A stretch of 64,000 nucleotides of DNA from an uncultured Clostridia bacterium (GTDB lineage Bacteria > Bacillota > Clostridia > Oscillospirales > Ruminococcaceae). The position numbers and the translations under genes were made by a program. Below are positions 49,860 to 63,827 of this stretch, piece by piece (within the stretch, counting starts at the first letter, position 1; the number at the start of each line of letters is the position of its first letter). The stretch is from assembly GCA_947631115.1 (NCBI GenBank), contig CANRKB010000006.1, positions 1 to 64,000 of the forward strand. The letters run 5' to 3'. A model generated the notes under the pieces. That model was given only the letters and a program-made list of their open reading frames with translations. It did not search any database and had not been told where the DNA came from.

Positions 49860-51575
49860 TTAGCAGCATCCGTTATTATCATCGCCGTGACCCGATTTTT
49901 TCTTCTTTACTGCAACGAATATCACAACGCCTGCTATTATAACTGCGCCTGCTGCCGCAGCTATTATCTTCGGCAGGAGGTTATCGTCCTGAGTTTCGGT
50001 TTCGGTCTGCGCGTTGATGTCGGAAGAACTGTCTGTTGAAGAAGCTGTATCGTTGGAATTTGTATTGTCGGAATTTGTGCCGGCACTTACGATTTCTCCA
50101 GGAGCAGCGCCCGATGTTTTATAGCTGTTTATAACGCTTTCAGTTGCCGTTGTATAATCCTCATGATTCTTGTCGCTTCCTATGTAATCTTCGCTTGTTT
50201 CATCAAGCACATACATTTTCTCGACATATCCGAGAATGGGAGCGTCATGCCCGTTATCGTCAACAATGTCCTTGTTGTATGCGAAGAAATACGGAACTTG
50301 GAGCTTGTTTGCAATCTTCTTTGTATCTTCATTGGCGGGATCGGTCTGATAGAAGATGTAGTTTTCGCTTTCGACAGTGTATTCGGTTTCAATATTGCCA
50401 AGATACTCGTTGACAAGGTCAACGTACAAATTTGCGAAAACATTTTCGCTGTCGCGGATATGAACGTCGCCCGCATAACCCCAGAATTTCTTTGCATACC
50501 CGCTATCCAGCTTGGTATCAAAATTATAAACGGTAACATTGTTTTCTACAGCGTAATCATTGATAAGGTCAATAACCGCCTGCGTATTCCCGCACCATGA
50601 GCCGCCGAACAAGATGAGATAGTCCCCGCTTTGATTTAAAAGCCATTGAAGCTGTTTATAAGTAAGTGTCTGAATATTTATTTTATCACCCACGGCAAAC
50701 AAGGTCTTGCCCGATTTTTCATTGTACGCAAGACGTATATAATCGGCGTCGGTAAACGAGGACAGCTGAACTTTGTCGCTGCTTGTTCCGATGTGGCTGA
50801 AGATCGCATTGTTGAGCTGCTCTGCATAATCCGTCACACGGGTAGTGTCGTCCTGAGTTTTGCTGCTTGTAAACAGATCCTTGCCGCCGTTTGCGTCACG
50901 ATAGAGCATTTTTTCAAAGCCGTATACTATCGGATATTTTTCGCCCTCTACGCTTTCTCCCGCATTATTGACGGTGTTGTCCTTGTTATAGAGGAAAAGG
51001 AACGGCACTTGGACCTTCGGAACAGTAACATCCTTGCCCTCGGAATTTGTATAGGTAAGCGCGCTTTCGCTGTCAGCCTTATACTCTACCCAGTCGTTTA
51101 AATTTGTAAGATAGCGCGTTACTAATTCGCCGTAAAGGTAATTGTAAGCCGCGCCGCTTTTGTCCGAACCGTTGGTTTCGCGGATATGCGTGTCGCTGTT
51201 CGTGCCGTCAAGACGGAAATCAAGATTGTATATAGTATCAACGCCCGACGCTTTAGCCGCGTCGTTTATGTAATCAATTACCGCCGTTGTGTTAGGGCAC
51301 CAGGAGCCGCCGAACAGTATAAGATAGTTGCCCTCCTGTTGGAAAAGGTAGACGGCTTCTTCCCATGTAATGCTTTGGAAAACCGAATTTTCATCGCCGA
51401 GATTAGCATAATCGGCGTTGTAATAGGCTTTGCCCGCATTGTAATCTGCACTTGACGAGCCGTCAGCCACTGCAGAAACAAGCGGGAACGCTGCGGCAAG
51501 CACCAGCGCCGCTATTGCCCAAAACAGTACCTCAAGCCGTGCTGCGGACTGTTTAAGTGATTTAATTTTTGACAT
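49860..51575 (-). CDS. exported membrane-anchored protein with two thioredoxin-like domains
   Basis: 571 residues. Signal or anchor at 10-36; thioredoxin-like domain 1 (about 65-280) with LILFGGSWCPNT (Cys93); thioredoxin-like domain 2 (about 310-490) with LILFGGSWCGNT; a Ser/Thr/Asn-rich linker; a C-terminal membrane span (about 535-557); a basic patch; and a cytosolic tail ending in GCC. Each domain has one Cys in a WCxN motif instead of the usual CxxC, so it may bind or transfer thiols rather than act as a classic dithiol reductase. The ATG at 51575 follows GGAGG. It is encoded behind a TcyP-like cystine symporter, which suggests a job in capturing or handling extracellular cystine. Family not recognised. 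Confidence 0.75.
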   Translation of the reverse strand: MSKIKSLKQSAARLEVLFWAIAALVLAAAFPLVSAVADGSSSADYNAGKAYYNADYANLGDENSVFQSITWEEAVYLFQQEGNYLILFGGSWCPNTTAVIDYINDAAKASGVDTIYNLDFRLDGTNSDTHIRETNGSDKSGAAYNYLYGELVTRYLTNLNDWVEYKADSESALTYTNSEGKDVTVPKVQVPFLFLYNKDNTVNNAGESVEGEKYPIVYGFEKMLYRDANGGKDLFTSSKTQDDTTRVTDYAEQLNNAIFSHIGTSSDKVQLSSFTDADYIRLAYNEKSGKTLFAVGDKINIQTLTYKQLQWLLNQSGDYLILFGGSWCGNTQAVIDLINDYAVENNVTVYNFDTKLDSGYAKKFWGYAGDVHIRDSENVFANLYVDLVNEYLGNIETEYTVESENYIFYQTDPANEDTKKIANKLQVPYFFAYNKDIVDDNGHDAPILGYVEKMYVLDETSEDYIGSDKNHEDYTTATESVINSYKTSGAAPGEIVSAGTNSDNTNSNDTASSTDSSSDINAQTETETQDDNLLPKIIAAAAGAVIIAGVVIFVAVKKKKSGHGDDNNGCC

Positions 51576-51604
51576 TGTAATTCCTCCAAAATAATTTTTA
51601 TCTG

Positions 51605-52123
51605 TCAGCAAAGCTCTATTTCTTCTGCGGGTTCGGGACTGCCTGTATTCTGCGAGGCGTCCGCGCCGCCGTCTGAATATTTACTTTCAAGAGACGTCAG
51701 ATCATCGTAATTGCTGACGTTTTTACATTTGCCCGTAGAACAGTATTCGTCAAAGCTTTTACGGGCAAGTTCGATATATTCTTTTATCGTTGCCTCGTCA
51801 CCACCGTTTTTGTCGGCAAGATAAGCGTTTTTGATGGCAAGCCGAACGTACTCAAATTTTGCAGCGGTAAGTTCATCGGCGTTTGTGACCTTGCTTTGCA
51901 GGGAAAGATTAGTGTCAAGCTCCCCGTAATATTTCAGCGCAAGGTCTATCTTTCCTTTGCTGTCGTTGGAAAATTCGACTGTGCCTATAGTGTCGATAGC
52001 ATTTACCGTTCTGCTCACTGAAAGATTTGCGGAAACAATGCTCAGCACTAAAAATACAACCGCCAAGATCAACAATATTATCGTGAATTTTATTGCTGTA
52101 CTTGTTTTTGTTTTGTCTGCCAT
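51605..52123 (-). CDS. single-span extracytoplasmic protein ending in Cys
   Basis: 172 residues: a charged start, one membrane span (about 11-33), then an extracellular helical domain (40-125) with two Cys in YCSTGKCKNV (near 128-132) and an acidic tail ending in EIELC. No family recognised. The start follows GAGGAGG and overlaps the symporter gene by 34 bases. With a transporter upstream and a thioredoxin-like protein 29 bases downstream, it may be an accessory subunit that exchanges disulfides at the cell surface (inference). Confidence 0.65.
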   Translation of the reverse strand: MADKTKTSTAIKFTIILLILAVVFLVLSIVSANLSVSRTVNAIDTIGTVEFSNDSKGKIDLALKYYGELDTNLSLQSKVTNADELTAAKFEYVRLAIKNAYLADKNGGDEATIKEYIELARKSFDEYCSTGKCKNVSNYDDLTSLESKYSDGGADASQNTGSPEPAEEIELC

Positions 52124-53763: not shown

Positions 53764-54666
53764 CTATGAATTTTCTTTCAGATATTCCGCCGCTGAAACT
53801 GCCGCATTTGCTCCGTCTGACGCTGCCGTTATTACTTGCCTCAGCTTTTTTGTTCTTACGTCTCCCGCGCAAAACAATCCTGCCGCTTTCGTTATTCCTG
53901 TTTCATCTGCTTTGATATAGCCGTTTTCATCTAAATCGACAATATTCCGCACTAAATCGGACGCGGGCGACATACCGATCGCTATAAAAACTCCGTCGAG
54001 AATAATCTCCCGCCCATTATCGAGTTTTATTGAACTTACGCGGTTTTCTCCAATGATTTCCGTGACGTTCGCGGGAGTTATTATCTCAATGTTTTCGCGC
54101 GATCTTATTTTGAGAACGCTTTTATCTGAGCCCCTAAATTCATTTCGCCTATGAATTAAATACACCTTTTTTGCCATATCGGATAAATACAGCGCGTCGT
54201 CAAGAGCCGTGTCGCCGCCGCCGATAACAGCTGCGGTTTTGCCGCGGTACAAAGCACCATCGCATATGGCGCAATACGATACGCCCTTACCGATAAATTT
54301 TTCTTCGCCGCTTACATTCAGACGCTTGTGAGACGCTCCCGAGGCATAGATAACGGCTTTTGCCTCTATGACATCTCCGCTTTGGAGCGTGATTATCCAC
54401 ACGCCGTTTTTCTGTTCAAGGCTCACCGCCTCGCCCTCGAGAAACTCCGTACCAAAGTGTTCTGCATCAGCCCTGAATTTTTCTCCGAGGTCAAAACCGC
54501 TTATACCGCAAAGTCCCAAGTAATTATCCACCTGTGCGCTTTCGGCGATCTGCCCCGTACCGAGAAATTCCTTTTCTATAACGACAACATCAAGGTTTGC
54601 TCTTTTTGCGTACAAAGCCGCAGACAGCCCCGCAGGACCGCTGCCTATTATCGCAAGATCTTTCAT
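53764..54666 (-). CDS. trxB: thioredoxin-disulfide reductase-like flavoprotein
   Basis: 300 residues: FAD-binding GSGPAGLSAALYAKRA at the start, the redox pair in CAICDG (near 132), NADPH-binding GGGDTALDDALYL, and the C-terminal GLFCAGDVR..QVITAASDGANAA. It would pass electrons from NADPH to the thioredoxin-like protein of the same operon (56117). The ATG at 54666 has AAAGGA nine bases upstream; an ATG three codons earlier touches that site. It is the last gene of the sulfur operon before a terminator. Confidence 0.92.
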   Translation of the reverse strand: MKDLAIIGSGPAGLSAALYAKRANLDVVVIEKEFLGTGQIAESAQVDNYLGLCGISGFDLGEKFRADAEHFGTEFLEGEAVSLEQKNGVWIITLQSGDVIEAKAVIYASGASHKRLNVSGEEKFIGKGVSYCAICDGALYRGKTAAVIGGGDTALDDALYLSDMAKKVYLIHRRNEFRGSDKSVLKIRSRENIEIITPANVTEIIGENRVSSIKLDNGREIILDGVFIAIGMSPASDLVRNIVDLDENGYIKADETGITKAAGLFCAGDVRTKKLRQVITAASDGANAAVSAAEYLKENS

Positions 54667-54671
54667 AGCTT

Positions 54672-55085
54672 TCATTCCTTTATAACTAATTCCTCGAGCT
54701 CTGCTTTATCGCCGTCAATGTGAAAAGAATTAAGCACCGGCTTATCCTTATCCATAAGCGACAATATAAGATAACTCGCCGTTTTGTCATAAGCCAGGCG
54801 CTTGTCCTCTTCGGACGGTCTTGACGGGGAAGAGGGGTGAGAATGCCAGTTTCCAAGCGGCGAAAGCCCCTGTTCGCGCATATCACGAACGGCGGCTAAT
54901 TGCTCCTTCGGGTCGAGCGAAAAATGCTCGTTAGATTTATCAATATTGTTGAGCAAGTACACTTTTTCGATGATCTTGTTATTTTCCTCGATTCTGCCCG
55001 CGATAAGCCCGCAAGCCTCGTTTGGGAGTTCGGACAGAGCGCGGTCTACTATTTTATAAAAATCGTCCTTTGATATTATTATCAT
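54672..55085 (-). CDS. JAMM/MPN+ metalloprotease 1
   Basis: 137 residues, zinc peptidase of the JAMM fold. All site residues are present: Glu23 in LPNEACG, His81 and His83 in WHSHP, Asp94 in SRPSEED, plus the Ser at HSHPSSPSRPS. Stand-alone bacterial members (Mec+, HcyD) trim ubiquitin-like sulfur carriers at the Gly-Gly end or release the amino acid product. Here the likely substrate is the ThiS-like protein of the same operon, which has extra residues after its glycines. GAGGAAAA precedes the ATG. It lies nine bases behind the E1-like gene. Confidence 0.9.
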   Translation of the reverse strand: MIIISKDDFYKIVDRALSELPNEACGLIAGRIEENNKIIEKVYLLNNIDKSNEHFSLDPKEQLAAVRDMREQGLSPLGNWHSHPSSPSRPSEEDKRLAYDKTASYLILSLMDKDKPVLNSFHIDGDKAELEELVIKE

Positions 55086-55094
55086 AAGTTTTCC

Positions 55095-55901
55095 TCACAC
55101 GCCGTTACATTCCGCTTGCTCGTAATCTACAAGCTCGGTTATCGTAGGTTCGTCGCCGCACACCGCGCATTTTCCGTTCGGTTTGGGGAGTTTTATCTTG
55201 CGGAACTCCATTTTTAGCGCGTTAAACGTCAGCAAATATCCCGTAAGCAATTCGCCCGTACCCGTTATGTACTTTATTGCTTCCATTGCCTGAAGACTGC
55301 CGATAATGCCGCCCATAGCGCCGATAACTCCCGCCTGCTTGCAGGTAGGCACAGCGTCCTTTGGCGGAGGCTCTTTGAACACGCATCTATAGCAGGGATC
55401 TTGTCCCGGAACGTAGGTCATAAGCTGCCCTTGAAAGCGGATTATTCCCGCATGGCAAAACGGTTTCTTTGCCATAACGCACGCGTCGTTTATCAAAAAT
55501 TTCGCGGGGAAATTATCCGTGCCGTCTATAATGAAATCATAGTCGCGGATTATTTCCATTATGTTTTCCGAGGACACAAACTCGTGATAGGTATTGACCG
55601 TAACGTCGGGGTTCATTTTGTTTATCGTTTCCTTTGCTGACTGCACCTTGGGCTTTCCGACGTCCTCTGTAGCGTGAATGATCTGCCGCTGTAAGTTTGA
55701 TAAATCAACCTCGTCTGCGTCCGCAATTCCTATCGTTCCTACGCCTGCGGCAGCGAGATACATAGCGCAGGGCGCGCCCAGACCGCCAGCCCCGATTATC
55801 AGCACTTTCGCGTTAAGGAGCTTTTTCTGTCCTTTAACGCCTACTTCCTTTAAGATGATGTGCCGCGAATACCGTTCCAACTGTTCGTTAGAGAATGTCA
55901 T
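55095..55901 (-). CDS. ThiF/MoeB-type E1-like sulfur-carrier activating enzyme
   Basis: 268 residues. LERYSRHIILKEVGVKGQKKL, then the nucleotide-binding IIGAGGLGAPCAMYLAAAGVG, DLSNLQRQIIH, IDGTDNFPAKFLINDAC, and zinc-binding pairs PCYRC and KCAVCG. A Cys in VPTCKQAG is at the ThiF/MoeB loop. It should adenylate the C-terminal glycine of the ThiS-like carrier. The ATG at 55901 lies inside the carrier gene (14-base overlap), and its ribosome site is the GGAGGAGGC that also encodes the carrier's glycines. Whether it is ThiF-, MoeB- or HcyF-like is best decided by the MetY/JAMM context, which favours HcyF-like. Confidence 0.92.
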   Translation of the reverse strand: MTFSNEQLERYSRHIILKEVGVKGQKKLLNAKVLIIGAGGLGAPCAMYLAAAGVGTIGIADADEVDLSNLQRQIIHATEDVGKPKVQSAKETINKMNPDVTVNTYHEFVSSENIMEIIRDYDFIIDGTDNFPAKFLINDACVMAKKPFCHAGIIRFQGQLMTYVPGQDPCYRCVFKEPPPKDAVPTCKQAGVIGAMGGIIGSLQAMEAIKYITGTGELLTGYLLTFNALKMEFRKIKLPKPNGKCAVCGDEPTITELVDYEQAECNGV

Positions 55902-56106
55902 AGCTGCCTCCTCCCATAAAATACAAAAATTCCACGACATCTCCATCGTGCAATTCAATTGATGAAAAGTTTTCGTTATCCGCAAATTCGTCATTTACCG
56001 ATACCGTGATATAGTCGGGATTTTCGACGTTTTCCTGTTTAATGAGTTCGGCTATAGTCAAGCCCTCGTTAAAATCCTTTGTTTCGCCCGCAACTGTTAT
56101 TTTCAT
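55888..56106 (-). CDS. ThiS/MoaD-like sulfur carrier with C-terminal extension
   Basis: 72 residues with the beta-grasp pattern MKITVAGETKDF, TIAELI, YITVSVND and LHDGDVVEFL. The end is MGGGSYDIL: the glycines at 65-67 are followed by five extra residues, so the conserved Gly-Gly is not free. In the Wolinella HcyS and related carriers, extra terminal residues are removed by a JAMM protease before activation; a JAMM gene lies two genes on. AGGAGGT precedes the ATG at 56106. The start of the E1 gene overlaps the end of this gene. Confidence 0.88.
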   Translation of the reverse strand: MKITVAGETKDFNEGLTIAELIKQENVENPDYITVSVNDEFADNENFSSIELHDGDVVEFLYFMGGGSYDIL

Positions 56107-56116
56107 CTCATACCTC

Positions 56117-56434
56117 CTATTTGTTTTCTTCAATAATGCGCTCGAGTTCTTCCTTTTTTCGCGCGCCTATAAACCGTCCGACCTCCGTGCCGTTTTTAAA
56201 CAGCAAAAACGTCGGTGTGGCGGCAATGTCGTATTCTTCGCAAAGTTCGGGTTCATACACCGCATTTACTTTCGCGATGAAAACTTCGTCAGCGTACTGC
56301 TCGCTGAGTTCGGACAGTATCGGCGACATTCGCTTGCAGGGAACGCAGGTATCTGTGTAAAATTCCACAACGGAAAGCCCCGAAAACTTTAAGACCTTTT
56401 CAGAGAAATCGTCGTTTCCTATTCTTTCCGCCAA
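56117..56434 (-). CDS. thioredoxin
   Basis: 105 residues of the thioredoxin fold with active site TDTCVPCKRM (CVPC, near 26-31), a cis-Pro in IAATPTFLLFKNG, and normal length. CVPC differs from the common CGPC, as in several clostridial thioredoxins. Start: TTG at 56434 with GGTGA five bases upstream is chosen; a GTG three codons earlier overlaps the tusA stop and is too close to its site. It is probably reduced by the TrxB-like protein of the same operon and could recycle persulfides or disulfides in sulfur transfer. Confidence 0.88.
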   Translation of the reverse strand: MAERIGNDDFSEKVLKFSGLSVVEFYTDTCVPCKRMSPILSELSEQYADEVFIAKVNAVYEPELCEEYDIAATPTFLLFKNGTEVGRFIGARKKEELERIIEENK

Positions 56435-56435
56435 G

Positions 56436-56681
56436 CTAATCACCTACCTTTCTGACCAAAAGATCGTATGTTCCGTCATCGTTTTGGGTAAAATCAAGGA
56501 TCTCGTGACCTTCTTCCTTAAGACTTCTCGGTACGTTTTGCGCGGGTTCGCCGCTGTTCATATGGACTTTCAGAATATCTCCCTCGTCGAGTTCGTCCAG
56601 AGCTACCTTTGTCTTTACAAACGTGACGGGGCAGTTTACATCGGTTATATCTATCGTGTCGGTTATTACGTATTCGGACAT
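56436..56681 (-). CDS. TusA-family sulfur transferase
   Basis: 81 residues. The TusA fold is shown by DITDVNCPVTFVKTKVAL, with the sulfur-accepting Cys in the CP motif near 17, LDELDEGDILKVH, and the closing ILDFTQNDDGTYDLLVRK. Such proteins accept persulfide from a cysteine desulfurase and pass it on; the encapsulated desulfurase at 57941 is the natural donor. The ATG at 56681 has AAGGA nine bases upstream, which sits on an earlier ATG codon. It is between metY and the thioredoxin gene with almost no spacing. Confidence 0.9.
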   Translation of the reverse strand: MSEYVITDTIDITDVNCPVTFVKTKVALDELDEGDILKVHMNSGEPAQNVPRSLKEEGHEILDFTQNDDGTYDLLVRKVGD

Positions 56682-56686
56682 TTTTA

Positions 56687-57925
56687 TCATTCCTTTCCGT
56701 TTACTTTTTCTATCGCTTGGGTAAAATCTTCGATAATGTCGCGGGCGTCTTCAATTCCCACGCTTATGCGGATAGTATCGTCATACACGCCCGCGTTTAT
56801 TCTCTGTTCTTCGGTGCTGTTAAGATAAATGGTTGACGCAGGGTGAATGACGAGAGTTTTTGTATCCCCGATATTTGTCGCATTCAGCGCGTATTTAAGA
56901 GCGTTCATAAGCGCATAGGCTTTCTCCTTTGAACCCGCTCTCAGTGTCACTATCCCGCCGCCCTTTCCGCCGAATTGCTTTTGGACTAAGGGATAATACG
57001 GATTGTTTGGAAGAGCAGGGTAGTTTACCTTTACACCGTTTGTTTTCTCCAGTGCATTTGCAAGCGCCAGAGCGTTTTCGCAGATACGTTCCACTCTTAG
57101 CGCAAGCGTTTCAATGCCTAATAAATTCAGATATGCATTCATCGGAGAAAGACAGCCGCCGATATTTCGCCATGTGTCGTTTTTGAGCCGAGCAGTAAAC
57201 GCAAGTCTACCATATTTTTTATACGGCGCGAGTACGGGATATTTATCAAAATCCCACTTGAAATTCCCGCTGTCTGTGATTATTCCGCTTATTGAGTTTC
57301 CGTTTCCGTTTATGTATTTTGACGAGGAATGTATAACAATGTCCGCGCCGTATTCAATGGAGCGGATAAGATACGGCGTGGCGGTGGTAGCGTCTACGAA
57401 AAGGGGGATATTATTTTCGTGTGCAAGCTCCGATACGCTGCGAATATCCATAACGTCAAGCCCCGGATTTCCGATTATCTCGCCGAATATGACCTTTGTT
57501 TTGTAGGTGATGTGCTTTTTTATCTCGTCAATAGTCATATGCGTTACAAACTTAGTTGTAATGCCGTATTCTTTAAGGTTGCGGAACAGATCTACCGTTC
57601 CGCCGAACAGCCCCGCGCCTGCAATTATCTCGTCGCCCGTGCCTAAGATATTCAAAAGCGCCGAAGATATAGCCGCCATTCCCGATGAACAGGCGGTCGC
57701 GGCGCGTCCGCCCTCAAGTTCGCAAATTCGCCTTTCAAAAGCGTCTACCGTAGGATTTGAGATCCTTGTATAGGCAAAGCCCGCCGCTTTCCCCGCGAAC
57801 ACCTTTTCGAGTTCCTCCGCGCTCTCATATGAGAACGCGCAGACCTGGCTTATCGGCGGGAGAGTTGCGCCGTTTTGAAATCTCCCTGCCGATTTGTCGT
57901 GCAATAATTTTGTACAAAATTCCAT
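56687..57925 (-). CDS. metY: O-acetylhomoserine sulfhydrylase (MetY type)
   Basis: 412 residues of the Cys/Met-metabolism PLP family: LPPISQVCAFSYESAEELEKVFAG, FAYTRISNPTVDAFERRI, GGRAATACSSGMAAIS, and the PLP lysine in IHSSSKYINGNGNSISG. It would make homocysteine from O-acetylhomoserine and sulfide or a protein thiocarboxylate. In Wolinella a MetY uses the thiocarboxylated HcyS carrier; the same gene set (MetY, ThiS-like, E1, JAMM) is here. A cystathionine-type activity cannot be ruled out by eye. It follows the desulfurase gene by 15 bases. Confidence 0.9.
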   Translation of the reverse strand: MEFCTKLLHDKSAGRFQNGATLPPISQVCAFSYESAEELEKVFAGKAAGFAYTRISNPTVDAFERRICELEGGRAATACSSGMAAISSALLNILGTGDEIIAGAGLFGGTVDLFRNLKEYGITTKFVTHMTIDEIKKHITYKTKVIFGEIIGNPGLDVMDIRSVSELAHENNIPLFVDATTATPYLIRSIEYGADIVIHSSSKYINGNGNSISGIITDSGNFKWDFDKYPVLAPYKKYGRLAFTARLKNDTWRNIGGCLSPMNAYLNLLGIETLALRVERICENALALANALEKTNGVKVNYPALPNNPYYPLVQKQFGGKGGGIVTLRAGSKEKAYALMNALKYALNATNIGDTKTLVIHPASTIYLNSTEEQRINAGVYDDTIRISVGIEDARDIIEDFTQAIEKVNGKE

Positions 57926-57940
57926 ATCAAGTACCGTCTG

Positions 57941-59680
57941 TTATATTGATCTTAACACTCTTGCCAAAGTATCAATATCTTCAAAAGTGTTATACAGTGC
58001 CAAAGTAGGGCGCACAACGCCCTCAAGCCCGTAGTGACGCAGAATAGGCTGTGCGCAGTGATGCCCCACGCGCACGGCAATTCCGTTCTGATCGAGAATT
58101 TGCCCTACGGTATCATTTGATACGCCGTCTATCACGAAAGAAAGTGCGCTTGATTTAGAAGGAGCAGTGCCGACAAGATGAAGTCCGTTTATCTTTGCGA
58201 GTTCTTTCATTCCGTAGCTTACAAGCTCGTGTTCATATGCGCTGACGGCGGGCATACCGATCGAGCTAAGATATTCAAGCGCCGCGCCTAAACCCACCGC
58301 GTCGCCTATGCTGCCAGTTCCTGCCTCGAATTTATTCGGCGCGGGATTATATATCGTTCTTTCAAACGTAACGTCCTTTATCATATTTCCGCCGCCGTGA
58401 TATGGCTTTGCGGCTTCGAGGACGTCCTTTTTGCCGTAGAGCGCGCCTATTCCCGTGGGAGCGTAAATTTTATGCCCGGAAAACACGAAAAAGTCAGCGT
58501 CAAGCGCGGAAATGTTCACGGGAATATGCGCCACAGACTGCGCACCGTCTATCATTATCCTTACGCCGTGCCTGTGCGCGATTGCAACAAGCTCGGCTAC
58601 GGGCGTTATCGTGCCTAATACGTTTGAAACGTGCGTTACGGACACAAACTTTGTGCGTTTGGTAAACAGCTTTTCGTATTCGGAAAGTTTAAGCTGCCCC
58701 GAATCGTCAACGGGAATTACCTTTATTACCGCGCCCGTTTCCTGCGCTACTAATTGCCACGGAACGATATTCGCGTGATGCTCCAAAAGCGAAACAATTA
58801 TCTCATCGCCCGGCTCCAAAAGCGGTTTTACATAAGCCTGCGCCACGAGATTTATACCCTCGGTCGTGCCTCTTACAAATATGATGTTATCCTTTGACGG
58901 CGCTCCGATGAAATCCGCGACGATCTGACGAGCCTTTTCATACGCGTCCGTCGACTTTGCCGCCAATGTATGCGCTCCTCTGTGGACGTTTGAGTTTTCA
59001 TGCTCGTAATAATAACTAAGCCTGTCGATAACGGCTTTCGGGCGCTGGGTAGTAGCGCCGTTGTCGAGCCAAATAAGCGGATTTCCGTTTACCTTTTCGC
59101 GAAGAATAGGGAAGTCCTCGCGTATTTGTTCGAGCGTTTTCGTCCCGACAACTATCCTCGTGTTGTTTTTCTGACCGCCCACGGTCTCAAAACTCACGCC
59201 TTTGTTGTCCTTTTGCGGGATAACGTTGTTGTCATTCGCCGTTGTGCGGACGTTTATGCTGTTGTTTTCATCAGCCTGCGCCTGCGATACAACTTTTGGA
59301 GAAAACCCCGCGTTATCCGCGTCTTTGCTTGTATGATCTGCGGTCAAATCTTCAAGTTCGCGAAAAGCTCCGCCTATGTCGTTGAAAGCGGGGAACTCGC
59401 TGCTTACACCCGAAAGGCTGTCGAAATTCAGCTCATTGCCGAGTTGTCCGAGAATATTCTCATAATCGCTTGCTCCAAGCACGGAGACGGCTTTGTCCGC
59501 GGCGGTATTGATAATTCCCGTATCGCCCGCAGTAACGAGTTTTTGAATACCGTCGGCGCATACATCGGGTTCAAAAATGCTGCCGCCCAAATCGCCGAAA
59601 AGGTCGTTTGCAAGCGTTTGCAGCTCATATTCCGAAGGCAGTCCCGAATAATCGAAAACATCAAAATTATTCGTAGTCAT
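57941..59680 (-). CDS. encapsulin cargo: SufS-type cysteine desulfurase with disordered N-terminal domain
   Basis: 579 residues. The C-terminal 400 form a complete type II cysteine desulfurase: LDNGATTQRPKAVIDRL, HRGAHTLA, PLP Lys404 in FSGHKIYAPTG, and catalytic Cys542 in RVGHHCAQP. The first 180 residues are acidic, low in complexity and contain repeated short motifs (LANDLFGDLGG near 23, ILGQLGNELNF near 76). This added domain is the mark of the cargo of Family 2A (SrpI) encapsulins, where it directs the enzyme into the shell. The ATG at 59680 overlaps the shell gene by 14 bases, and the ribosome site GAGGTGG lies within that gene. The enzyme turns cysteine into alanine plus enzyme-bound persulfide. 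Confidence 0.93.
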   Translation of the reverse strand: MTTNNFDVFDYSGLPSEYELQTLANDLFGDLGGSIFEPDVCADGIQKLVTAGDTGIINTAADKAVSVLGASDYENILGQLGNELNFDSLSGVSSEFPAFNDIGGAFRELEDLTADHTSKDADNAGFSPKVVSQAQADENNSINVRTTANDNNVIPQKDNKGVSFETVGGQKNNTRIVVGTKTLEQIREDFPILREKVNGNPLIWLDNGATTQRPKAVIDRLSYYYEHENSNVHRGAHTLAAKSTDAYEKARQIVADFIGAPSKDNIIFVRGTTEGINLVAQAYVKPLLEPGDEIIVSLLEHHANIVPWQLVAQETGAVIKVIPVDDSGQLKLSEYEKLFTKRTKFVSVTHVSNVLGTITPVAELVAIAHRHGVRIMIDGAQSVAHIPVNISALDADFFVFSGHKIYAPTGIGALYGKKDVLEAAKPYHGGGNMIKDVTFERTIYNPAPNKFEAGTGSIGDAVGLGAALEYLSSIGMPAVSAYEHELVSYGMKELAKINGLHLVGTAPSKSSALSFVIDGVSNDTVGQILDQNGIAVRVGHHCAQPILRHYGLEGVVRPTLALYNTFEDIDTLARVLRSI

Positions 59681-60620
59681 GATACTCGCCCACCTCAACA
59701 TCTTCCAATACCGCAATGGCGTCGTCCGCTAAGATCGCCGCAGAGCAGTAAAGGCTCAGCAGATAGGACGCCACGCCTTTGTCGTCAATGCCCCTGAAAC
59801 GCACCGACAGACCTCTCGACTGTTCGTTTTTCATACCCGCCTGATAAAGTCCTATAACTCCGCGCTTTGCCTCTCCCGTGCGCAGCAGAAGAATGTTGGT
59901 CTTTCCGCTTTGGCTCTTGGGATTTTTAAGTCCGTCTACAAGGAGCTTATCGGTAGGGATTATCGGTATTCCTCTCCAGACTACAAACGTGCCGCCCGCT
60001 ATGTTTGTTGTTACGGGAGGAACGCCGCGTTTTGTACATTCTCTTTCAAACGCTGCTATAGCGCGCGGATGAGCGAGGAAGAAGGACGGCTCTTTCCATA
60101 CCTTTGTGATAAGCTCGTCAAGGTCGTCGGGAGTGGGCGCACCGTTGCTCTGAACGGGCTGTATTCTCTGCGAATCTGCAACATTTTTGAGCAAGCCGTA
60201 ATCATCGTTATTGATAAGCTGGCTCTCCTGACGCTCGCGCAGGCTCTCAATGCCGAGTGCAAGCTGTTCTTTTACCTGGTCGTAGGGCGCGCTGTAAACG
60301 TCCTCTATGGCGGTATTAACGTTAATGATCGTTGAAATGGAATTTAAACGGTATTCGCGCGGTTCTTCCTCGTATTTTATGTAGCCGTCGGGGATAATGT
60401 CGGACTTCTTTGTCTGACTGCACAAAACGTCAAGCGGAGTATCTCCCTCAACGACCTTGTTCACACGGTAAATTCCCGTCGGCAAGCCCTTAAATTCCAA
60501 CAGCTTTGTCAGCCATTTCGGGGTAATTGCACCATACTGCGGTTTGGTTTTGTTTACATCAGCCAGATTGTAGGCGGCGCGTGCGCCTAATGCCTTGATT
60601 GCTTGTTCTTCATTTGCCAT
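59667..60620 (-). CDS. Family 2A encapsulin shell protein (SrpI-like)
   Basis: 317 residues with the HK97-type shell fold of Family 2A. Recognisable blocks: LGARAAYNLADVNKTKPQYGAI, GIYRVNKV, EEPREYRLNSISTIINVNT, RQESQLINNDDYGLL, NGAPTPDDLDELITKVWKEP, HPRAIAAFERECTKRGVPP, FVVWRGIPIIPTDKL and AVLEDVEVGEYHDYE. It should self-assemble into a T=1 nanocompartment of 60 subunits (family knowledge) that holds the cysteine desulfurase encoded directly after it. AAGGAG precedes the ATG. There is no cyclic-nucleotide-binding insertion, which separates it from Family 2B. Confidence 0.93.
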   Translation of the reverse strand: MANEEQAIKALGARAAYNLADVNKTKPQYGAITPKWLTKLLEFKGLPTGIYRVNKVVEGDTPLDVLCSQTKKSDIIPDGYIKYEEEPREYRLNSISTIINVNTAIEDVYSAPYDQVKEQLALGIESLRERQESQLINNDDYGLLKNVADSQRIQPVQSNGAPTPDDLDELITKVWKEPSFFLAHPRAIAAFERECTKRGVPPVTTNIAGGTFVVWRGIPIIPTDKLLVDGLKNPKSQSGKTNILLLRTGEAKRGVIGLYQAGMKNEQSRGLSVRFRGIDDKGVASYLLSLYCSAAILADDAIAVLEDVEVGEYHDYE

Positions 60621-60660
60621 TGTTTTATTCTCCTTAAATTATAATTTTATTATTTGAAAG

Positions 60661-62106
60661 CTATGCTTTCTCATTTGCAAAAAATATTTCCTTTGCGGCA
60701 TTCACGCCGCCGCTCAGACTTAACATTCGCCCCGTATATCCCGCGTCTTTCAGCGTATTTATAGCCAGGATACTGCGCTTACCCTCTGTGCAGATGAAAA
60801 CGGTATCTATGTTTGCGTCAAGTTCCTTTTGCCGCCTTACAAGCTGTCCTATCGGAATAACAACAGCGTTCGGGAAACGGCGTATTGCTCGTTCGTGAGG
60901 TTCTCTGATGTCAACGATAGTTAAGGGTTCTCCGCCGTCCATCCGCGCCTTGAGTTCCGCGGGGTCGATAGTTTCTACGGAGTTTTCTTCTTCACACGGC
61001 TTCAAGTCGCAGAAATCTTCATAGTCAAATTCGGTTATTTCCGTAATTGTCGGATTTTTCCCGCAGACGGGGCAATTTTCGTCCTTGCATATTTTTAAGA
61101 CCGACGTGCGAAAATTCCAAGTGTCCATGACAAACAGCTTTCCCGCCAGAGTTTCTCCGCCGCCTATAAGGAGTTTAAGGACTTCGTTTGCCTGTATACT
61201 GCCGATAATTCCCGAAAGAGGGCTTATCGTCCCGCCCGCCGAGCAAGTAGGAACTAATCCCGCGGGCGGCGGAGCAGGGAACTGACACCGAAAACACGGA
61301 CTTCCGTTTTGCACATCGAAAACGCTTACCTGTCCCTCAAATTGATAAATCGCCCCGAACACTATCGGCTTTTTACAAAGTACGCACGCGTCGTTAATAA
61401 GATAGCGCGACTGATAATTGTCCGTACAGTCGACTATTACATCATATCCGTCTATTATCCCTGCTATGTTATCGGCGGTTATGCGCTCATTTATCGTTTC
61501 GATCTTGACGTTAGGATTTATGGCTTTTATCTTATCCCTTGCGGACGCAGTTTTTGGCCGGTTCACGTCTTTCGTTGTGTGTATAACTTGACTTTGCAGA
61601 TTGCCAAGCGAAACCTCGTCAAAGTCGGCTATGCCGAGCATTCCCACTCCCGCCGCGGCCAGATACTGCACGACGGGAGTGCCGAGCGCCCCCAATCCTA
61701 AAATGAGAACTTTCGCTGCTTTAATGCGCTTTTGCCCTTTTACTCCGATATCCCGCAGCATAAGGTGTTTGTTATAGCGTTCAATTTCCTTGTCGTCAAG
61801 CGTCACCGCCTTGCGCCGTTCGTCGGAGATAACGCTCACTGCGGGCGCGCCGCCCGCAATCACGGGCAGCAGTAAAATGCTGTCGCCCTCTTTCAAGTCC
61901 GCATCGTTATGTACTCGCCTGTCGTTTACGAAAACACTGACAAACGGCTTAATATTGCCGTTATCCTCAAAAATTTTCTCACATTCTGGATATTTTTCGC
62001 GCAAGTCGCTAAGCGCCTCGCGGACGGTATTTCCCTCTACTTCGACTTCGGCTTTATGCTCTGCGAAAATGCGCAGAGTTGCCGAAATATACAACGTGTT
62101 CTTCAT
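60661..62106 (-). CDS. MoaD-MoeB-rhodanese triple fusion
   Basis: 481 residues with three parts. Residues 1-88: a MoaD/ThiS-type beta-grasp domain (LYISATLRIFAEH, VREALSDL, FVSVFVNDRR, LKEGDSILLLPVIAGG) with Gly-Gly at 85-86, where a free carrier would end. Residues 105-370: E1-like MoeB/ThiF enzyme (ERYNKHLMLRDIGVKGQKRI, GLGALGTPVVQYLAAAGVG, SLGNLQSQVIH, zinc pairs CFRC and CPVC). Residues 385-478: rhodanese with active Cys in VFICTEGKRS. The carrier would need cutting after Gly86 before activation, and the JAMM gene overlapping its start by 53 bases is the candidate. The rhodanese would supply persulfide sulfur. MoeB-rhodanese fusions are common; the added N-terminal carrier is unusual. Confidence 0.9.
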   Translation of the reverse strand: MKNTLYISATLRIFAEHKAEVEVEGNTVREALSDLREKYPECEKIFEDNGNIKPFVSVFVNDRRVHNDADLKEGDSILLLPVIAGGAPAVSVISDERRKAVTLDDKEIERYNKHLMLRDIGVKGQKRIKAAKVLILGLGALGTPVVQYLAAAGVGMLGIADFDEVSLGNLQSQVIHTTKDVNRPKTASARDKIKAINPNVKIETINERITADNIAGIIDGYDVIVDCTDNYQSRYLINDACVLCKKPIVFGAIYQFEGQVSVFDVQNGSPCFRCQFPAPPPAGLVPTCSAGGTISPLSGIIGSIQANEVLKLLIGGGETLAGKLFVMDTWNFRTSVLKICKDENCPVCGKNPTITEITEFDYEDFCDLKPCEEENSVETIDPAELKARMDGGEPLTIVDIREPHERAIRRFPNAVVIPIGQLVRRQKELDANIDTVFICTEGKRSILAINTLKDAGYTGRMLSLSGGVNAAKEIFFANEKA

Positions 62107-62545
62107 GCTGTTTCTCGCTTTCTGTTATGAGATATTCTTCCCTACAGATATTTGTACCGATAATTTTTTCAAAGCTCGCTATCTTAAAATACAGCCCGTC
62201 TGCTCCCTCGTTTGCCGAAACAATGGGATATGAATGATCGTAAAGCATATACCGCTCGTCAGTTTTTGAGAGGACTGCGGCGCAGTCTGGATGCGAATGA
62301 TAAAAACCTACTATCATAAGGTCATGAGCAAAAGCAAAAAGTTCTATCTTATGGATAACAAGCGGATCTAAAGCAAAATACGCCGACTTATCCCGTGCGC
62401 TTTTATTTTCCAAACGCAGTGCTTGTTCTGCAAAGCGCTTATTGCTTATTTGCTTTCCGAGCAAAACGCCGCAGCATTCGTTCGGGTATTCACACTCCGC
62501 ATGAGCTAAAAGCTCTCTTGTTACTTCATCATTAAGTACGAGCAT
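62054..62545 (-). CDS. JAMM/MPN+ metalloprotease 2
   Basis: 163 residues. Zinc site complete: Glu23 in YPNECCG, His83 and His85 in YHSHP, Asp96 in LSKTDER. The C-terminal 18 residues are encoded in a 53-base overlap with the fusion gene. It is larger than JAMM 1 by a C-terminal extension. By position it should process the MoaD part of the fusion. The ATG at 62545 follows CAGGTAA; a strong terminator-like hairpin lies just before it (62560-62612). Confidence 0.88.
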   Translation of the reverse strand: MLVLNDEVTRELLAHAECEYPNECCGVLLGKQISNKRFAEQALRLENKSARDKSAYFALDPLVIHKIELFAFAHDLMIVGFYHSHPDCAAVLSKTDERYMLYDHSYPIVSANEGADGLYFKIASFEKIIGTNICREEYLITESEKQHEEHVVYFGNSAHFRRA

Positions 62546-62559
62546 AAAAAATTACCTGT

Positions 62560-62612
62560 AAAAATAAAAAAGCCCGAGTTTTCTACAGAACACGTTCTGT
62601 AAAAACCTCCGG
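62560..62612 (-). terminator. strong hairpin with T-run between yezD and JAMM 2
   Basis: On the minus strand a stem of about 19 positions, 17 paired (CCGGAGGTTTTTACAGAAC with its partner), ends at 62573 and is followed by CTTTTTTATTTTT. An overlapping CCGGAAAACCGG hairpin (62609-62620) excludes its outer pairs. It could limit read-through from the yezD promoter into the sulfur operon. Confidence 0.75.
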
Positions 62613-62620
62613 TTTTCCGG

Positions 62621-62770
62621 TCAGTTTAATCTGATTTTGTCTGTTTTTTCTACTTGAATAACCTTGCCGTCTTGAATTATAGCCGTCACGGTCCCGTATT
62701 TCGTTTCCCGTATCAGCCTGTCTATAATTTCAAGATAGTTATCTTTTTTCACATCATCATTTTTTGACAC
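62621..62770 (-). CDS. yezD: YezD-family small protein (DUF2292)
   Basis: 49 residues: KDNYLEIIDRLIRETKYGTVTAIIQDGKVIQVEKTDKIRLN matches in pattern the YezD/DUF2292 family, small proteins often found beside sulfur-assimilation genes; function unknown. The start is GTG at 62770, with GAGGGGG about ten bases upstream. It is the first gene after the LysR-type promoter at 62806-62847. (Longer sequence than quoted motifs: key parts are YGTVTAIIQDGKV at 25-37 and the EKTDKIRL end.). Confidence 0.8.
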   Translation of the reverse strand: MSKNDDVKKDNYLEIIDRLIRETKYGTVTAIIQDGKVIQVEKTDKIRLN

Positions 62771-62888: not shown

Positions 62889-63827
62889 TTAGCCCTTGTC
62901 GATAGCCTTATATTTTTCAAGATAACCCCGTATTTCCTCAATATAAAGCCTTCCCATTGCGCTTATAGGCATATTTTTCCTTGTGATATAGCCTATAACC
63001 ATTCTGTCGGCGTCGTCGGGCGTTTCGTATTCAAACGGGACGGCGACAAAATCCGTGCCGTTCAATTCCTCGCAGATTATCCCCGAACATAATGTATAGC
63101 CGTTCAGTCCTATCATGAGATTTAACATAGTGGCTCGGTCGTTGGCTTTTATCGTCCTTGCATAATCCTTTGTGCCTAAGATCTCCTCCGCAAAATAGAA
63201 CGACCCGTTGTCGCCCTGTTCAAATGACAGGCAAGGATATTCGTTAAGCTCCTCAAACCGTATTGAACTCTTTTTTGCGAGCGGGTGTTCCCGCCATAGA
63301 TATACATACGCGTCGCAGACAGCAAGCTCGTGAAATTCAAGATCCTTTGTATGCAAAAGTTTCATGATAACCGCGCGGTTGAAGTCACTGAGATAAATAA
63401 TTCCGATCTCGCTTTTGCCGGTATTTACGTCGTGTATTACCTCCTTTGTCTTGGTTTCTCTGATCGCAAAATCGTATTCTGCGGTATTGAATTTCTTTGC
63501 TACCTCTACGAAACTTTTTACTGCAAACGAATAATGCTGAGTTGAAATGCCGAATTTCTTCTTGAGGTTTCCAATTTTTCCGTACTTCTGGAGGATTTCT
63601 TCATATTGCTGATACAACTGCCTTGCGTACAGCAAAAACTCCATACCCTCGTTTGTAGGTGTAACGCCTCTGCCGCTGCGGTAAAAAATCGTTATCCCAA
63701 GCTCCTTTTCAAGTTCCTTTACAGAGCTTGTAAGCGACGGCTGCGACACATACAAGATTTCCGAAGCCTTATTGAGAGAACCCGTTTCGGAGATCGTAAT
63801 AATGTAGTGCAGTTGTTGTAAAGTCAT
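62889..63827 (-). CDS. LysR-family regulator of the sulfur island
   Basis: 312 residues. N-terminal winged HTH (TLQQLHYIITISETGSLNKA, SQPSLTSSVKELEKELGI, FYRSGRGVTPTNEG) and a C-terminal effector-binding domain (about 92-300), with length normal for the family. It is encoded directly upstream of yezD in the same direction but with its own promoter. Shared motifs in the lysR and yezD promoters suggest autoregulation and control of sulfur uptake and transfer. The ligand is probably a cysteine precursor such as O-acetylserine, by analogy with CysB/CysL; this is inference. Confidence 0.92.
   Translation of the reverse strand: MTLQQLHYIITISETGSLNKASEILYVSQPSLTSSVKELEKELGITIFYRSGRGVTPTNEGMEFLLYARQLYQQYEEILQKYGKIGNLKKKFGISTQHYSFAVKSFVEVAKKFNTAEYDFAIRETKTKEVIHDVNTGKSEIGIIYLSDFNRAVIMKLLHTKDLEFHELAVCDAYVYLWREHPLAKKSSIRFEELNEYPCLSFEQGDNGSFYFAEEILGTKDYARTIKANDRATMLNLMIGLNGYTLCSGIICEELNGTDFVAVPFEYETPDDADRMVIGYITRKNMPISAMGRLYIEEIRGYLEKYKAIDKG

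Follow-up and report, generated by a model that had tools for sequence, protein, structure and literature searches.

Where does the sulfur go that a cysteine desulfurase would release inside a Family 2A encapsulin shell? The question is raised by a gene run in an uncultured Clostridia bacterium (Ruminococcaceae), located in the 64,000-nucleotide stretch that we analysed and refer to as the window (assembly GCA_947631115.1, contig CANRKB010000006.1, positions 1 to 64,000 of the forward strand). Family 2A encapsulins with a cysteine desulfurase are known from the SrpI/CyD pair of Synechococcus elongatus (PMC8049743) and from a census (PMC8346489). In the sections of these papers used here, Nichols et al. 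2021 (PMC8049743) left the fate of the sulfur open, considered that the role could be found through it, and proposed NifU/SufE carriers or polysulfide storage, and Andreas and Giessen 2021 (PMC8346489) reported serine acetyltransferases and rhodaneses to be the genes most enriched near desulfurase shells and suggested a dedicated rhodanese acceptor. We found that the window surrounds such a shell and desulfurase with two ubiquitin-fold carriers, their E1-like activating enzymes and two JAMM proteases. The locus thereby joins three known kinds of system, a combination that is a new form within one Family 2A shell branch.

The genes form one tight run of 12 on the minus strand, from 62770 to 53764, in the following order:

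62621..62770, minus strand: DUF2292 small protein, first gene of the run (PF10055, 49.3 bits; probable GTG start at 62770)
62054..62545, minus strand: JAMM2 protease, 163 residues (PF14464, Prok-JAB, 63 bits, cutoff 25; PF01398, 33 bits)
60661..62106, minus strand: MoaD-E1-rhodanese fusion with an internal AGG at residues 84-86 (PF02597, PF00899, PF00581; ThiS 40.6, ThiF 263.1 and Rhodanese 45 bits, all above cutoff)
59667..60620, minus strand: Family 2A encapsulin shell, SrpI-like, 317 residues (PF19307, 307 bits; NF041162, 475 bits, cutoff 380)
57941..59680, minus strand: SufS-type cysteine desulfurase with an N-terminal cargo extension (TIGR01979, 545 bits, above cutoff)
56687..57925, minus strand: MetY-like sulfhydrylase (PF01053, Cys_Met_Meta_PP, 364 bits, above cutoff)
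56436..56690, minus strand: TusA-like sulfurtransferase (PF01206, 71 bits)
56117..56443, minus strand: thioredoxin, GTG start (PF00085, 91 bits)
55888..56106, minus strand: ThiS-like carrier, 72 residues, C-terminus MGGG-SYDIL (TIGR01683, 58.7 bits, above cutoff; start ATG at 56106)
55095..55901, minus strand: E1-like adenylyltransferase without rhodanese, 268 residues (PF00899, ThiF, 300 bits; start ATG at 55901)
54672..55085, minus strand: JAMM1 protease, 137 residues (PF14464, Prok-JAB, 85.7 bits)
53764..54675, minus strand: thioredoxin reductase-like flavoprotein, TrxB (TIGR01292, 328.8 bits, cutoff 343)

An earlier note on this DNA had placed all the parts that it named in one leftward run, and each was found at its coordinates, on the minus strand and with a match to its family; its right end, 62770, is a GTG and the probable start of the DUF2292 gene, which its text did not name. 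The intergenic gaps from DUF2292 to TrxB lie between -53 and +75 bp, followed by one of 273 bp, a spacing that is compatible with a single transcription unit.

By homology, the shell is assigned to Family 2A and the desulfurase to the cargo type. The shell scored 364 bits against the family 2B model, below its cutoff of 400, and is of the SrpI-like type without a cNMP domain. The desulfurase scored 770 bits against the family 2A cargo model NF041166, 30 under the cutoff of 800, and its N-terminal extension of about 180 residues carries conserved motifs over 79 aligned rows, including an LxxLANxxF-like motif in most of them. The likeness to the SrpI/CyD system lies in the shell and cargo families standing side by side and in this motif, which resembles LARLANEFFS in the description of that system used here (PMC8049743); the differences are that the rhodanese domain forms one protein with a carrier and an E1 and that JAMM proteases, TusA and MetY are added. 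The placing of the shell and desulfurase between two separate carrier/E1/JAMM modules also holds, and local identities between the modules (JAMM 32%, E1 47%, carrier 28%) led us to reject a recent duplication of one module into two.

When species genomes were scanned with the shell protein, 494 relatives were obtained; we kept the top 80 loci (L-numbers), and counts from them therefore favour this shell branch. These loci come from 77 assemblies, three of which give two loci each, and by title are mostly from gut and rumen Clostridia, together with three Fibrobacter metagenome-assembled genomes (MAGs) and one Treponema MAG; 39 of them are well flanked, with at least 7 kb on both sides. Named genomes of Pseudobutyrivibrio and Ruminococcus flavefaciens are among those with the parts (L040, L051, L059 and L066). 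Fusion, shell and desulfurase are consecutive in all 39 well-flanked loci, 32 of which carry JAMM2 and 29 ThiS, E1 and JAMM1 together, a result that refutes uniqueness to this genome. Of all 80 loci, 78 have the fusion; in the other two (L031 and L041) the available sequence starts only with the shell gene. Wherever JAMM2 occurs (58 loci), it lies directly before the fusion. Clustered at 80% identity of their fusions, the 39 loci give 27 clusters, with the ThiS module in all members of 18 and JAMM2 in all members of 24. The fusions of the three Fibrobacter MAGs (L024, L079 and L080) are placed inside a Lachnospiraceae-rich part of the tree, representing either transfer between phyla or mis-binning, and assembly JAEEKC01 (L035 and L049) has two fusion-JAMM2-shell copies on different contigs with one JAMM1, representing either a second copy or a mixed bin.

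Less biased samples were taken from the order (295 genomes), another family (189) and the phylum (398), with the fusion search in the order covering matches to E 1e-60 and at most five scored candidates per genome. The shell was present in five genomes of the order and, among the matches listed, the three-domain fusion in three, all with the shell, and in none of the 290 shell-less genomes (Fisher p 2e-6, which ignores kinship, two of the three genomes being of one genus). In a further shell genome of the order, G180 (L124; 83% complete), the parts of the fusion are present but unfused, and in the fifth, G242, neither E1 nor JAMM lies near the shell. In the other family, seven genomes have the shell and six of them the fusion beside it, the seventh shell lying on a 7 kb contig. 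Seven shells were also found in the phylum sample, with the fusion in the window's genome (G000; 96% complete) and G629, which belongs to the other family as well, and without it in the remaining five. The relay genes are thus not general to Family 2A, and their link to the shell is confined to one branch of it.

The ThiS/E1/JAMM1 module is distributed more loosely. TusA and MetY accompany it in 25 of the 29 well-flanked loci that have it (24 with a strong MetY). JAMM1 is missing from the flanking stretch of the shell in 27 of the 80 loci, many on short contigs, and among 21 such genomes searched whole it was found elsewhere in 19: in 13 of the first 15 as a second full-length Prok-JAB, at sites that all hold ThiS, E1 and JAMM1, and beside E1 in all of the further six (other short stretches from genome searches served only these location checks). 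In L040 and L051, two of these 13, a single contig holds both JAMM2 and the separate JAMM1 site, only about 14.6 kb apart; most of the remaining sites are on other contigs. In the order, Prok-JAB matches of at least 50 bits, which we call strong by a line drawn after seeing the list, occurred in four of five shell genomes versus five of 290 shell-less ones; matches above the Pfam cutoff of 25 occurred in 29 of 295. The earlier note's question of whether JAMM, E1 and carrier genes are conserved independently of the shell thus has a divided answer: this is true of ThiS/E1/JAMM1, seen whole in three shell-less genomes and in part in two, and lying beyond the flanking stretch of the shell in 13 of 15, but the fusion was seen only with the shell in the order sample.

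Such looseness is what would be expected if the locus were a sulfur-regulon neighbourhood, in which the shell with its desulfurase, a CysO-like module (fusion and JAMM2) and an HcyS-like module (ThiS, E1 and JAMM1) are biochemically independent and share only regulation by sulfur status. Besides the distant and shell-less JAMM1 modules, this alternative draws on the other sulfur genes found in some of the 39 loci (an Rrf2 regulator in 16, cysteine synthase in 12, sulfite reductase in four); against it speaks that the fusion adjoins the shell in 39 of 39 loci and was absent, among the matches listed, from the 290 shell-less genomes, and that the gap between desulfurase and MetY in the window is just 15 bp. 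We regard it as unlikely, although far from negligible.

Both carriers look like blocked precursors that would need trimming by a JAMM protease. The fusion alignment (79 rows, window included) was made without L001 and L082-L086, which are short or repeated stretches, and L123 and L126, repeats of L003 and L063, were left out of the fusion tree and of the carrier-end and proline counts. In all 79 rows the MoaD fold ends in Ala/Val-Gly-Gly and the linker behind it varies in length and letters, and with six fusions from the other family the Gly-Gly pair is kept in 85 of 85. Adenylation of such a carrier requires a free C-terminal glycine, and an internal Gly-Gly that is always kept therefore points to cutting. 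An AlphaFold2 model of the fusion (22 sequences; mean predicted local distance difference test score 79.5) has confidence below 50 at residues 85-118, from the Gly-Gly on. The ThiS-like carriers end in GGG plus one to six residues in 62 of 63 cases, and all 56 aligned rows have MGGG plus a tail. It is thus a well-supported prediction that the ThiS-like carrier is made blocked by a short tail after GGG and the MoaD-like carrier by a whole E1-rhodanese after AGG, and both look protease-matured, as had been proposed.

The one ThiS-like protein without a tail, in L131, ends exactly in MGGG and adjoins ThiG, marking it as the ThiS of thiamine synthesis, although it is a single control. At positions 24-3379 of L131 the thiamine operon (ThiS, ThiG and a radical SAM ThiH-like gene) lies just upstream of a blocked ThiS/E1/JAMM1 module, two ThiS types with different ends thus lying about 3 kb apart, and the JAMM1 module is about 4 kb past the thiamine ThiS. 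No ThiG stands beside ThiS in the window's run, the only part of the genome searched for it, and with the tail SYDIL after MGGG the window's carrier was rejected as a thiamine ThiS. In G180 (L124) the MoaD-type carrier stands alone as a protein of 93 residues that ends AGG-CL; the gene order is cysteine synthase, JAMM2, carrier, E1-rhodanese, shell, desulfurase and serine acetyltransferase. Its long branch falls inside the fused forms, with no strong support, so that L124 was not accepted as the ancestral unfused state; the unfused form may represent a secondary split.

The predicted active sites are conserved, the catalytic residues being assigned from general knowledge of these families. The JAMM motif (His-x-His, Ser, Asp) is invariant in 59 of 59 JAMM2 and 54 of 54 JAMM1 rows, Cys-Pro in 51 of 51 TusA rows, the redox cysteine pair in 26 of 26 thioredoxin rows and GHHCA in 79 of 79 desulfurase rows; in the fusion, the rhodanese Cys, the E1 Cys and the zinc cysteines are invariant in the aligned rows, and the NLQRQ arginine of the stand-alone E1 is kept in all 60 rows, which include a few TcdA-like proteins. 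Among 16 genomes searched for strong Prok-JAB matches, 12 had exactly one, always of the JAMM1 type beside E1, two (L017 and L035) had both JAMM types and two fragmentary assemblies (G764 and G816) had none; most of the 16 are MAGs, in which JAMM2 may have been missed. Two residues after the Gly-Gly, loci with JAMM2 have proline in 53 rows and another residue in six, and loci without JAMM2 have proline in none of 21 (five further rows could not be called, and L124 was left unscored). We did not accept this proline as proof of JAMM2 specificity and treat it as no more than a lead, since the Fisher value of 3e-14 ignores kinship and the association is not significant on the tree.

Carriers and JAMM proteases of this kind could also belong to a ubiquitin-like conjugation system, in which proteins are modified with the carriers and the JAMM enzymes take these off again. 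The carrier domains match the archaeal SAMP1 model with 44.3 bits (window) and 54.5 bits (L124), and the JAMM proteins match the desampylase model with 62.9 and 74.9 bits; all of these values are below the cutoffs (60 and 130, respectively), and the neighbouring genes in the run mostly encode enzymes of sulfur or thiol chemistry, with both rhodanese and TusA belonging to sulfur-donor families. We consider conjugation very improbable.

Clues to the users of the sulfur come from the enzymes that travel with each module. Serine acetyltransferase is present in 32 of the 39 loci, directly after the desulfurase in 22 and directly before the fusion in five, and cysteine synthase in 12; over the full set of 80 loci, cysteine synthase immediately precedes JAMM2 or the fusion in 10. 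Because these genes, cysteine synthase only sometimes, travel with the fusion/JAMM2 module, a CysO-like, cysteine-side role fits it better than MetY does, and the earlier assignment of both carriers to MetY is not upheld. The solved structures matched by the carrier domain include 3dwg_C and 4n6e_B, which we take to be CysO proteins. MetY appears to go with the ThiS/TusA module, a pairing that fits an HcyS-like role. In the window's run there is neither serine acetyltransferase nor cysteine synthase, and MetY is the only such acceptor enzyme. Elsewhere in this genome, PALP-family genes are on contigs C3, C5 and C40, the cysteine synthase-like gene on C3 adjoining a MetY-like gene; a search for a long serine acetyltransferase found none, with one partial CysE-like match on C9. 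Two further MetY-like proteins of the genome share 37-38% identity with the run's MetY, which by sequence is thus a third, divergent enzyme of this kind; it scored 409 bits against the O-acetylhomoserine/O-acetylserine sulfhydrylase model TIGR01326, below the cutoff of 495. A molybdopterin role for the MoaD fusion was rejected, as MoaE was found in neither of the two genomes searched (G000 and G249), a search whose control was positive in 11 of 14.

The same enzymes could be fed by a shell that serves storage only, holding sulfane sulfur from which thioredoxin and TrxB free sulfide for cysteine synthase and MetY, with the carriers serving another source such as sulfite reduction. Sulfur storage in Acinetobacter has reportedly been the subject of a study. 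Thioredoxin and TrxB are in the run, sulfite reductase stands beside carrier genes in several loci (e.g. L011, L016 and L131), and encapsulated cysteine desulfurases are said, in the part of PMC12407261 used here, to act in sulfur storage. Storage only, however, leaves unexplained why a carrier-E1-rhodanese fusion always adjoins the shell (39 loci), and we judge it improbable.

We favour instead a sulfur relay linked to the compartment, in which proteases activate two ubiquitin-fold carriers, and as a whole explanation we give it an even chance. From the gene content, its conservation and the blocked carriers, which are observed, we infer the cutting, the sulfur hand-over and the users. A JAMM protease would cut after the glycines before E1 can adenylate the carriers, most likely JAMM2 acting on the fusion and JAMM1 on ThiS; in genomes with JAMM1 as the only JAMM found, JAMM1 would have to cut both. 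TusA and the fusion's rhodanese domain would accept sulfane sulfur from the desulfurase and load the carriers as thiocarboxylates, the MoaD carrier then giving its sulfur to cysteine synthase in the CysO manner and the ThiS carrier to MetY in the HcyS manner, yielding homocysteine. Thioredoxin and its reductase probably give electrons for sulfur release or disulfide recycling. As a sulfur buffer, the shell would take up sulfur from cysteine in times of plenty and release it to cysteine and methionine synthesis in times of need, and a futile cycle from cysteine to cysteine would thereby be avoided. The more specific proposal, that the encapsulated desulfurase feeds a JAMM-split carrier-E1-rhodanese polyprotein and that the shell supplies the cysteine and homocysteine carriers as a switchable store, is tentative and in our view somewhat doubtful.

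Several observations weigh against this predicted relay. Making cysteine from cysteine-derived sulfur is futile unless the shell stores sulfur, and the 80 loci are the nearest of 494 shells, which tilts the counts towards this branch. In the order and phylum samples, six loci (L125, L127-L130 and L132) have no E1 or JAMM in the 11-20 kb around the shell, two of them with weak rhodanese matches, and the shell-less G091 has E1 and rhodanese frames side by side. L056 (the Treponema MAG) and L014 carry the fusion, and whole-genome searches found no JAMM1 module in either; conversely, of the five shell-less genomes with a strong Prok-JAB, three have the full ThiS/E1/JAMM1 module and two a partial one. 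The fusion tree contains five JAMM2 changes and three well-supported independent pairs, with a median sign-test p of 0.5 for JAMM2 and proline. Among solved structures, 3ri6, presumably the Wolinella enzyme, is only third for the run's MetY (312.6 bits; 8sf5 at 351.9). Finally, at the position aligned to NLQRQ of MoeB, whose arginine we take to be an ATP contact, the fusion E1 has replaced the arginine in 61 of 79 rows, and this loss could weaken adenylation by the fusion E1. It is essentially that of one supported 60-row clade, including the window, with Ser, Asn or Thr instead; the other clade, with the JAMM2-less Ruminococcus loci, keeps Arg except for one Cys.

The lost arginine also lends itself to the alternative that the fusion is never cut, the internal AGG being kept for docking and the MoaD domain forming a fixed regulatory lid on its own E1. 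Against a fixed lid stand the unfused relative ending AGG-CL beside a JAMM gene, the variable length and letters of the linker after AGG, and a JAMM-cleaved MoaD fusion known in Deinococcus (PMC8832034), and we hold an uncut fusion to be quite improbable. In the part of that report used here, the JAMM protein DR0402 cuts a MoaD-MoaE fusion, and the predicted relay resembles it in that release of MoaD from a fused partner by a JAMM enzyme would expose the C-terminal glycine; here, in contrast, MoaD is joined to E1-rhodanese, and the search of the window's genome gave no MoaE.

The relay proposed here is built from parts with known counterparts. The window holds a CysO-type set of MoaD-type carrier, E1-rhodanese and JAMM, cysteine synthase being absent from the run; CysO-Mec-CysM with MoeZ of actinobacteria is said to be a system of MoaD-type carrier, JAMM, cysteine synthase and E1-rhodanese. 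The run also holds an HcyS-type set, namely a ThiS-like carrier with a blocked C-terminus, JAMM, E1 and MetY, and HcyS/HcyD/HcyF/MetY of Wolinella reportedly comprise the same parts, HcyS having a blocked carrier end. Both module types were already described by Iyer et al. 2006 (PMC1779556, Table 1 rows 4b-4e), where row 4c lists ThiS/MoaD-JAB-E1-rhodanese operons with cysteine synthase and row 4e ThiS/MoaD-JAB-E1-SirA operons with O-acetylhomoserine sulfhydrylase. Like the row 4e operons, as given in that table, the window has carrier, JAMM, E1 without rhodanese, TusA/SirA and sulfhydrylase together; unlike them and Wolinella HcyS, its run is without sulfate-assimilation genes and has a shell predicted to be loaded with desulfurase. 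With the CysO system and the operons of rows 4b and 4c it shares a MoaD-type carrier, E1-rhodanese and JAMM, and some relatives add cysteine synthase and serine acetyltransferase; it differs from these in that the carrier is fused to its own E1-rhodanese and that shell and desulfurase directly follow. The statement in the earlier note that no described system joins these parts stands as far as no such report was found, but both module types (PMC1779556) and a shell with rhodanese and serine acetyltransferase (PMC8346489) are in print in the portions used here. Our literature search, in open-licence texts, found no paper linking an encapsulin with ThiF, a sulfur carrier or a ubiquitin-like protein, although a neighbourhood table in a supplement may list such a link; MoeB is absent from the main texts of PMC8346489 and PMC8049743.

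Putative control elements and a regulator gene were located around the run:

62889..63827, minus strand: LysR-type regulator, upstream of the run (PF00126, 63.6 bits; PF03466, 39.4 bits)
62834-62806, minus strand: promoter-like site upstream of DUF2292 (consensus scan, weak evidence)
62556..62625, minus strand: conserved terminator- or attenuator-like hairpin that separates DUF2292 from JAMM2; it begins at the stop codon of DUF2292 and closes with a T run
53749-53724, minus strand: terminator-like hairpin directly after TrxB (11 pairs, 6 G-C, T-rich tail; consensus scan only)

The promoter and terminator scan barely exceeds shuffles (32 versus 22.6 and 21 versus 17.9 sites, respectively) and is weak evidence by itself, although the hairpin after TrxB is the longest minus-strand terminator-like hairpin in it. 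The LysR gene, preceded by a perfect TTGACA-17-TATAAT, possibly encodes a regulator of the run. DUF2292 matches the OscA sulfur-starvation model weakly (20.8 bits, cutoff 85).

The hairpin at 62556-62625, which also contains a competing CCGG-AAAA-CCGG hairpin, has RNA z-scores of -3.6 (62560-62628) and -3.0 (62550-62640). Its 21-base core is exact in the window and in eight of the 80 relatives (L002-L005, L007, L008, L018 and L027), and its inner helix is paired in all 70 cells of seven sequences. Two pairs are changed on both sides, a count equalled by 83 of 500 shuffles, and the covariation score is matched by 3 of 500. It has no Rfam match above the gathering score, and its core no match in the viral contigs searched. 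The hairpin is a possible attenuator before JAMM2. In L003 and L005 the sequence before it is unlike that of sister loci and resembles an inserted element, with the hairpin itself intact. No known riboswitch or T-box in the window reached the gathering score, and a scan of seven relatives for known RNAs gave one TwoAYGGAY match only, far from the genes discussed.

Downstream of the run are genes for an SDF-family transporter and thioredoxin-like proteins. Cystine transport by the SDF symporter was not supported, its best models being DctA and GltP, both below cutoff. A protein of about 572 residues (49860-51611, minus strand) has an N-terminus resembling a signal sequence, a hydrophobic segment at its C-terminal end and two repeats that carry WCPN/WCGN motifs, and a 172-residue protein (51605-52123, minus strand) adjoins it; neither has a Pfam or NCBIfam match. 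In L002-L004 and L006 both genes again follow the SDF symporter, and the edge of L027 holds a partial match to the 172-residue protein.

For the question of where Family 2A sulfur goes, the locus points to specific candidate acceptors whose genes accompany the shell, and the keeping of the same parts by many relatives suggests where the sulfur of the shell may go. In addition, a ubiquitin-fold carrier is here made in one chain with the E1 that would activate it, and L124 offers a natural unfused form to compare it with. Should the proposed relay prove true, it would to our knowledge be the first case in which a protein organelle is shown to hand on its product by way of a ubiquitin-like system.

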